Assembly (NCBI GenBank): GCA_016342285.1 | Contig: JAEINQ010000033.1 | Coordinates: forward strand, 1 to 64,000 | Reading direction: 5' to 3' | From: Desulfobacterales bacterium | Lineage (GTDB): Bacteria; Desulfobacterota; Desulfobacteria; Desulfobacterales; JAEINQ01 | DNA: 64,000 bases | In this document: positions 37,617 to 38,884 of the stretch, piece by piece | Layout of the letters: each line of letters starts with the position of its first letter | How positions within the stretch are numbered: the first letter of the stretch is position 1 | Notes under the pieces: generated by a model | The model's database searches: none | What the model saw: the letters and a program-made list of their open reading frames with translations, nothing else | Told to the model about the DNA's origin: nothing | Position numbers and translations under genes: made by a program

Positions 37617-37828
37617 GGTTTCTCCCCTCTCATTCAAAATGCTTTTTGTCAAAGGCGGATCGCATTTTATGCTTTCAATCGGTGCCCCCCTTGGACGACC
37701 GAAGCGCATCATAGGCGGACCCTTTATGGCTTTCAAGGTGAATTATTTTGTCCGAATACAGGCCATTGCCATTTTTTGTCCCATAGATTATTCTGATGAC
37801 CAAGCGGATAACCATTTGGGATTTTAAT

Positions 37829-37846
37829 AAGCGGCCGTTGCCGCTT
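37829..37846 (+). promoter_or_regulatory. Short leader hairpin before the selenoprotein peroxiredoxin gene
   Basis: AAGCGGC-CGTT-GCCGCTT forms a perfect 7-bp stem with a 4-nt loop, 15 nt upstream of the AAAGGAGG ribosome site. It might stabilise the mRNA or gate translation; no regulator is evident. Confidence 0.35.
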
Positions 37847-37873
37847 CATGGGAAAACAGAAAGGAGGACCTGC

Positions 37874-38596
37874 ATGCCGGAAGACATGAAAATCGGATGT
37901 GCCAGACCCACCGGCGGTCCGGTGGGCGAGGAACCCGTGACAGAAGGTGCACAGGAGGAACCCAAAAAGGCTCAGGAGGTTGGCCCCATGATCAAGATAG
38001 GAAAGAAAGTGCCGGATTTTGCTGCCCCGGCCTATCACAATGGCAAATTCGTTTCCGTCAAACTTTCTGAATACCTGGGCAAATGGGTGCTCCTCTGCTT
38101 TTACCCCGGTGATTTCACCTTTGTCTGAGCGACCGAAATTTCGGCAGTTGCCGAAAAACACGCGGCGTTCCAGAAACTGGGAGTAGAAGTGCTTTCCATG
38201 AGCATCGATAGCGTCTTCGTCCACAAAATGTGGGTGGAACACGAGCTTTCCAAGATGGTCGCCAGCGGCGTTCCCTTCCCCATGCTGTCGGATACCGGTG
38301 GCAAGGTGGGCAAGGCCTATGGCGTTTTTGACGAGGACGCCGGGGTCGACACCCGCGGCCGCTTCATCATCGATCCCGACGGTGTGGTCCAGGGGTTTGA
38401 GGTCCTCACCCCGCCAGTGGGAAGAAATGTCCTGGAGACCTTCCGGCAGGTCCAGGCCTTCCAACTGGTGAGAGAGACCAAGGGGGCCGAGGCGACCCCG
38501 TCCGGCTGGCAACCGGGCAAAGTGACCCTGAAGCCGGGTCCCGATCTGGTGGGCAAGGTCTGGGAGGTCTGGAAAACCGGCATGGCTTTCGACTGA
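37874..38596 (+). CDS. Selenocysteine-containing peroxiredoxin (AhpC/Prx type, 1-Sec)
   Basis: Reading the TGA at 38126-38128 as selenocysteine joins two frame-matched halves into a 240-residue peroxiredoxin. Sec85 replaces the peroxidatic Cys of the FTFVCPTE motif (here FTFV-Sec-ATEI). Downstream are [32 protein letters not shown] and [10 protein letters not shown], all Prx landmarks. The resolving Cys of the C-terminal VCPAxW motif is replaced ([10 protein letters not shown]), and no Cys follows Sec85, so it is a 1-Sec enzyme. A ~39-residue N-terminal extension with Cys9 precedes the usual [10 protein letters not shown] start. AAAGGAGG precedes the ATG. It probably reduces peroxides with an external thiol partner. 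Confidence 0.88.
38126..38156 (+). promoter_or_regulatory. SECIS-like element of the peroxiredoxin gene
   Basis: The UGA at 38126-38128 is followed by a hairpin with a perfect 7-bp stem UUUCGGC/GCCGAAA (38139-38145 and 38150-38156) capped by AGUU. The GU in the apical loop lies about 19 nt after the UGA. Bacterial SECIS hairpins lie just 3' of the UGA within the coding sequence and present a GU in the loop to SelB, so the position and loop fit. Confidence 0.75.
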
Positions 38597-38616
38597 TATT
38601 CAGGTATTTCAACTTG

Positions 38617-38660
38617 AAGCAAAGAGCGGGCGCGCCTTTGTATGCAACCGCTCTTTGCTT
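38617..38660. promoter_or_regulatory. 13-bp perfect inverted repeat between the two selenoprotein genes
   Basis: AAGCAAAGAGCGG (38617-38629) and its exact complement CCGCTCTTTGCTT (38648-38660) are separated by 18 nt. The right arm ends directly before the GGAAAG ribosome site of the next gene. There is no T-run, so it looks more like an mRNA processing or stability structure, or a translation-gating hairpin, than a classical terminator. Confidence 0.5.
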
Positions 38661-38674
38661 TGGAAAGTGTCCCC

Positions 38675-38884
38675 ATGAATACCAGCCCGACCATCTGCTT
38701 CTGTTTCGGCTACTCGGAAAAGGACATCGTCGAAGATGTCAAGGCCAACGGGGAGAGCCGGATCATGGAGAAGATCATGGCGGCCAAGCGGTTCGGCCAG
38801 TGCGAATGTGCCACACAAAATCCCAAGGGCACCTGATGCCTGGGCGATGTCCGCCGGGTCGTGGACAAGGCGAAACAGCGGTGA
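38675..38884 (+). CDS. Small [2Fe-2S] BFD-like selenoprotein (Csac_0668-type)
   Basis: Reading the TGA at 38834-38836 as Sec gives a 69-residue protein. Its pattern is C8-F-C10-FGY ... C43-E-C45 ... NPKGT-Sec54-C55-LGDVRRVV. This matches my recollection of the BFD-like/CopZ-N-like iron-sulfur family known as Csac_0668 family (seleno)proteins, where the penultimate ligand position is Cys or Sec. Stopping at the TGA would remove the conserved UCLGDVRRVV end that is clearly coding. It lies 78 bp after the Sec-peroxiredoxin gene and is likely cotranscribed, possibly supplying electrons (inference). Confidence 0.82.
38834..38855 (+). promoter_or_regulatory. SECIS-like element of the [2Fe-2S] selenoprotein gene
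   Basis: After the UGA (38834-38836) the stem GGCG/CGCC (38843-38846 and 38852-38855) encloses the loop AUGUC, which exposes a GU at 38849-38850. Weaker outer pairs (CU with GG) extend it. The loop is about 13 nt from the UGA, at the short end of what is usual for bacterial SECIS elements. Confidence 0.55.

Follow-up and report, generated by a model that had tools for sequence, protein, structure and literature searches.

Selenocysteine (Sec) peroxiredoxins are an established protein family. PrxU of Eubacterium acidaminophilum, which we take to be the namesake of the PrxU family (NCBIfam NF040737), is such an enzyme from a strict anaerobe. The Sec-Prx of this organism is described in Soehling 2001, according to the citation of that work in PMC8533274, and a deltaproteobacterial Sec-Prx was already present in a list from 2006 (PMC1794560). 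Here we analysed a 64,000-nucleotide stretch of a Desulfobacterales contig (the window), in which the gene at 37874-38596 (plus strand), like that of E. acidaminophilum, encodes a selenocysteine peroxiredoxin. Over its whole length, including an N-terminal extension and Sec at the peroxidatic site, the protein resembles NF040737 PrxU, and we found no feature that distinguishes it from this family.

A PrxU gene with an internal TGA

A single frame of 240 codons extends from the ATG at 37874, which is preceded by a strong AGGAGG site, to a TGA stop at 38594-38596. Its only interruption is a TGA at 38126-38128, corresponding to residue 85 in the context DFTFV-U-ATE, and alignment to homologues places this codon at the peroxidatic-Cys position of the AhpC/Prx1-type motif FYPxDFTFV(C)xTE. 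A reading made from the letters of the window alone (the sequence-only reading) had proposed that two frame-matched halves of one peroxiredoxin meet at this TGA and that a standard gene caller would report them as fragments; the halves do form one 240-residue frame, and gene calling with table 11 splits prxU into 37796-38128 and 38189-38596. The extra N-terminus of ~39 residues carrying Cys9, also described there, is present in the translation.

With 414.9 bits, the protein clears the curated 270-bit cut-off of the NF040737 equivalog model, and its residues 7-235 align to positions 2-231 of the 233 in the model. Pfam matches to PF00578 (133.5 bits) and PF10417 (27.1 bits) agree with this assignment (domains AhpC-TSA, Redoxin and 1-cysPrx_C), and in the NCBIfam search of the 240-residue protein the AhpC model TIGR03137 scored far under its own cut-off. 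Because the NF040737 match spans the N-terminal extension, this extension belongs to the known family and is no peculiarity of the gene studied here. The gene is therefore an ordinary member of a catalogued selenoprotein family that is common among sulfate-reducing bacteria, and this membership takes away most of its novelty.

An AF2 monomer model (mean pLDDT 76, N-terminal extension disordered) has the fold of 2-Cys Prx/AhpC proteins and resembles typical members (PDB 5zte, 7kj1 and 1n8j) with a TM-score by target of 0.87-0.89, inter-subunit contacts lying outside the reach of a monomer model. The active site FYPxDFTFVxxTE is common to all of these proteins, whereas the present one has TGA/Sec in place of the peroxidatic Cys, Thr in place of the resolving Cys, and both an added N-terminus and Cys75. 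The role of Sec85 as the peroxidatic residue follows from the fold together with the active-site motif.

The TGA is conserved among relatives

Relatives at E <= 1e-40 occur in 151 of 390 genomes of the same class, the closest being ~72-82% identical across the full protein, and nearly every full-length match contains a single TGA in the same place. Sampling the phylum more widely, we found 94 genomes out of 297 with a score above the PrxU cut-off; most of these matches have one TGA and a few have none. PrxU-type genes also occur on contigs whose labels include Spirochaetes, KSB1 and Calditrichota, many of these contigs being metagenome bins. The TGA-free forms that we read all have Cys at the peroxidatic site, both the long form L163, which has an N-terminal Cys, and the short forms L164-L168. 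The in-frame TGA therefore aligns to a redox Cys of homologues, as is required of a selenoprotein gene. A TGA at the peroxidatic position occurs far beyond chance, with nearly all close relatives having exactly this TGA.

These data bear directly on the possibility that the gene is a pseudogene or contains a sequencing error, with the TGA having arisen by nonsense mutation in what was once a Cys peroxiredoxin. Although TGA is indeed one base away from TGC and TGT, the same TGA is present in most relatives from many families, and the hairpin that follows it covaries, as described below. Nor did we encounter what the sequence-only reading had named as the contrary case, an unrelated residue at this site and a degraded downstream half: homologues have Cys or TGA, and their 3′ halves are intact. 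Because both TGA and SECIS are conserved, we consider the pseudogene reading refuted and a frameshift likewise ruled out, leaving this explanation a vanishingly small probability.

A covarying SECIS hairpin follows the TGA

The model for bacterial SECIS elements (bSECIS) calls for an N1-G-U-N2 loop with pairing between N1 and N2, and allows a distance of 16-37 nt from UGA to loop (PMC13188914). The hairpin UUUCGGC-AGUU-GCCGAAA at 38139-38156 (plus strand), which has eight pairs including a loop-closing A-U and carries GU in its apical loop, fits this model with an N1-G-U-N2 loop and a UGA-to-loop distance of 17 nt, and is a textbook bacterial SECIS. Folding of the region, suggested along with the original proposal of a GU-loop hairpin behind the TGA, recovered this structure with z = -3.3 to -3.6, more stable than all 200 shuffles. 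An Rfam search of the region returned chance matches only.

Across 64 distinct sequences, 98.8% of alignment cells in the 8-pair helix are paired, whereas shuffles reach 87.9%. Covariation scores 0.366 versus 0.139 for shuffled alignments (0/500 reach the observed value), every slid version of the helix scores lower, and RNAalifold recovers the identical stem. Five of the eight SECIS pairs show changes on both sides, mostly synonymous, and the compensation is codon-neutral: TCG-GCA-GTT-GCC, TCA-GCA-GTT-GCT, TCG-GCG-GTC-GCC and TCC-GCG-GTC-GCG each encode S-A-V-A. Within this Ser-Ala-Val-Ala stretch the Ser and last Ala codons are swapped as TCG/GCC, TCA/GCT, TCC/GCG and TCT/GCA, and those between them as GCA-GTT, GCG-GTC and GCT-GTA, while the central GU of the loop is invariant in the alignment. 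The hairpin is missing from Cys homologues, the long form L163 included, which are without the GU loop and can pair 2 to 6 of the 8 positions, versus 7 or 8 of 8 in the Sec forms tested, short ones among them.

The genome encodes the selenocysteine machinery

Absence of selA, selB, selC and selD was the other outcome that the sequence-only reading had held to speak against a selenoprotein, and all four were found in the same genome. The selC tRNA-Sec has anticodon TCA and scores 75.4 bits, above its cut-off, and selB and selA score 356 and 613 bits, respectively. Two selD genes (373 and 362 bits) each contain one in-frame TGA. A DNA search of the same genome with the tRNA-Sec region found nothing further. 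The draft assembly has an estimated contamination of 8.5%, and the sel genes sit on contigs other than that of prxU, so they could in principle stem from another organism, but the conservation of TGA and SECIS is independent of this. Separately, the presence of two selD genes, at L019 and L020 (G000:C104 and G000:C159), could be explained by duplication or by bin contamination, and the genome has a further, distantly peroxiredoxin-like frame containing one TGA at L003 (G000:C125:7980-8291).

A recoding of UGA to another amino acid such as Trp or Gly, or its suppression without selenium, would also produce a full-length protein. We found no point in favour of this, and prxU itself terminates at TGA, SelA/B/C/D are present and homologues have Cys at the site, so we give it almost no credence. 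Instead, the selenocysteine proposed for the peroxidatic site is supported by the conserved TGA, the SECIS, the sel genes and the Cys of homologues. Taking together the frame, the family, the Sec machinery, SECIS conservation and the Cys/Sec exchange in homologues, we are close to certain that 37874-38596 is a functional PrxU-family selenoprotein gene with Sec85 at the peroxidatic site.

Long forms have lost the canonical resolving cysteine

The ‘(E)VCPAGW’ motif of solved 2-Cys Prxs corresponds to ‘EATPSGW’ here, such that the C-terminal resolving Cys (VCP) of typical 2-Cys enzymes is replaced by Thr208 (codon 38495-38497). All 87 distinct close relatives have Thr at this position, and all 87 have Cys75 (codon 38096-38098), ten residues upstream of Sec. 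Cys9 (codon 37898-37900) lies in a GC(A/S)RPTGG motif of the extension. Among the 112 distinct TGA sequences with Cys75, 102 contain this motif. In eight of the other ten, the Cys sits within a variant motif; the frame of L152 is interrupted by a stop ahead of this region, and L178 is divergent. This count is fairer than the 58/58 at Cys9 in alignment A2, whose rows were picked by the Cys9 motif and whose agreement is thus partly selected.

None of the short forms that we read has Cys9 or Cys75. In L165, L167, L168, L175 and L176, where the resolving Cys persists (VCP/ACP), position 75 is occupied by Val, Leu, Phe or Met and the Cys9 motif is missing. Tyr or Phe occupies this position in L164, L166, L173, L174 and L180, which are without the resolving Cys as well as Cys9 and Cys75; as these forms lost the resolving Cys without gaining either residue, other solutions exist. 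Cys9 together with Cys75 is therefore a mark of the long form that has lost the canonical resolving Cys, and this co-occurrence renders an internal replacement plausible, though not proven.

The sequence-only reading had called the protein a 1-Sec enzyme with no resolving cysteine. Loss of the C-terminal Cys is confirmed, but with Cys9 and Cys75 conserved the absence of any resolver is unproven. In a true 1-Sec enzyme, thioredoxin, glutaredoxin or a small thiol would act on the selenenic acid directly as reductant, leaving Cys9 and Cys75 with other roles (structure, metal, sensing). Thr208 and its counterparts in the 87 relatives, the predicted disorder of the extension, the ready reaction of selenenic acids with thiols (PMC8533274) and the five short forms devoid of all three Cys residues are consistent with this, whereas the joint conservation of Cys9 and Cys75 in the long forms from which the resolving Cys has gone, and the lack of Cys75 and the Cys9 motif in the short forms that keep VCP/ACP, argue against it. 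We rate it as a serious possibility, somewhat short of even, and it concerns the resolving step only, leaving the selenoprotein reading unaffected.

Alternatively, Cys9 and Cys75, being conserved across the long-form family, may act as resolving thiols. We tentatively suggest, at a likelihood nearer to one third than to one half, a relocated resolving Cys in which Cys9 on the flexible N-terminal arm, perhaps relayed via Cys75, forms a selenenylsulfide with Sec85. We know of no description of such a Cys9-type arrangement in typical 2-Cys peroxiredoxins.

A second selenoprotein gene lies downstream of prxU

A gene for a 69-residue BFD/CopZ-like [2Fe-2S] protein begins 78 bases 3′ of prxU (38675-38884, plus strand) and contains a TGA at 38834-38836 in the context NPKGT-U-CLG. 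Its GTUC matches the GxUC of the published CopZ-like selenoprotein form (PMC13188914), and relatives occur in 49 of 192 class genomes, nearly all with the TGA. This is a second selenoprotein gene, of a known type, which the sequence-only reading had overlooked. A motif scan of the relatives examined did not find the CopZ-like gene next to prxU.

Between the two genes, a strong 12-bp inverted repeat AGCAAAGAGCGG...CCGCTCTTTGCT at 38618-38659 (z -4.5 for 38600-38674) is terminator-like, without a clear T run. Within 4 kb of prxU, no gene neighbour is constant among 59 loci; a FUR-family regulator recurs at 9 and an FAD-dependent pyridine nucleotide-disulfide oxidoreductase at 10 of them. Some Smithella/Syntrophaceae-type relatives have, directly behind prxU, a second peroxiredoxin-like protein with a TGA at the peroxidatic site (YPKDDT-xx-U-IRQ; L094, L102, L117, L121, L123, L130, L134 and L141, ~760 bases 3′ of the prxU TGA), which in L123 has a lipoprotein-like N-terminus.

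Discussion

We infer that Sec is incorporated in vivo and that the product is a peroxidase. SelB with Sec-tRNA(Sec) would decode the UGA at 38126-38128, aided by the downstream hairpin, and Sec85 would reduce hydrogen peroxide or organic hydroperoxides and become a selenenic acid. Because the C-terminal Cys that canonically serves for resolution is absent, another thiol would resolve the selenenic acid, most likely a conserved internal one (Cys9 or Cys75), or else an external thiol acting directly. Thioredoxin would then reduce the enzyme, the putative electron donor and substrate being taken from the name of the family, which designates PrxU a thioredoxin-dependent peroxiredoxin.

The analysis confirms that peroxiredoxin genes called as two fragments in genomes of this kind are selenoproteins, and adds a clean set of SECIS covariation. 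If the conserved Cys9/Cys75 pair does resolve Sec85, the family would show how a 2-Cys peroxiredoxin was rebuilt upon the adoption of selenium.
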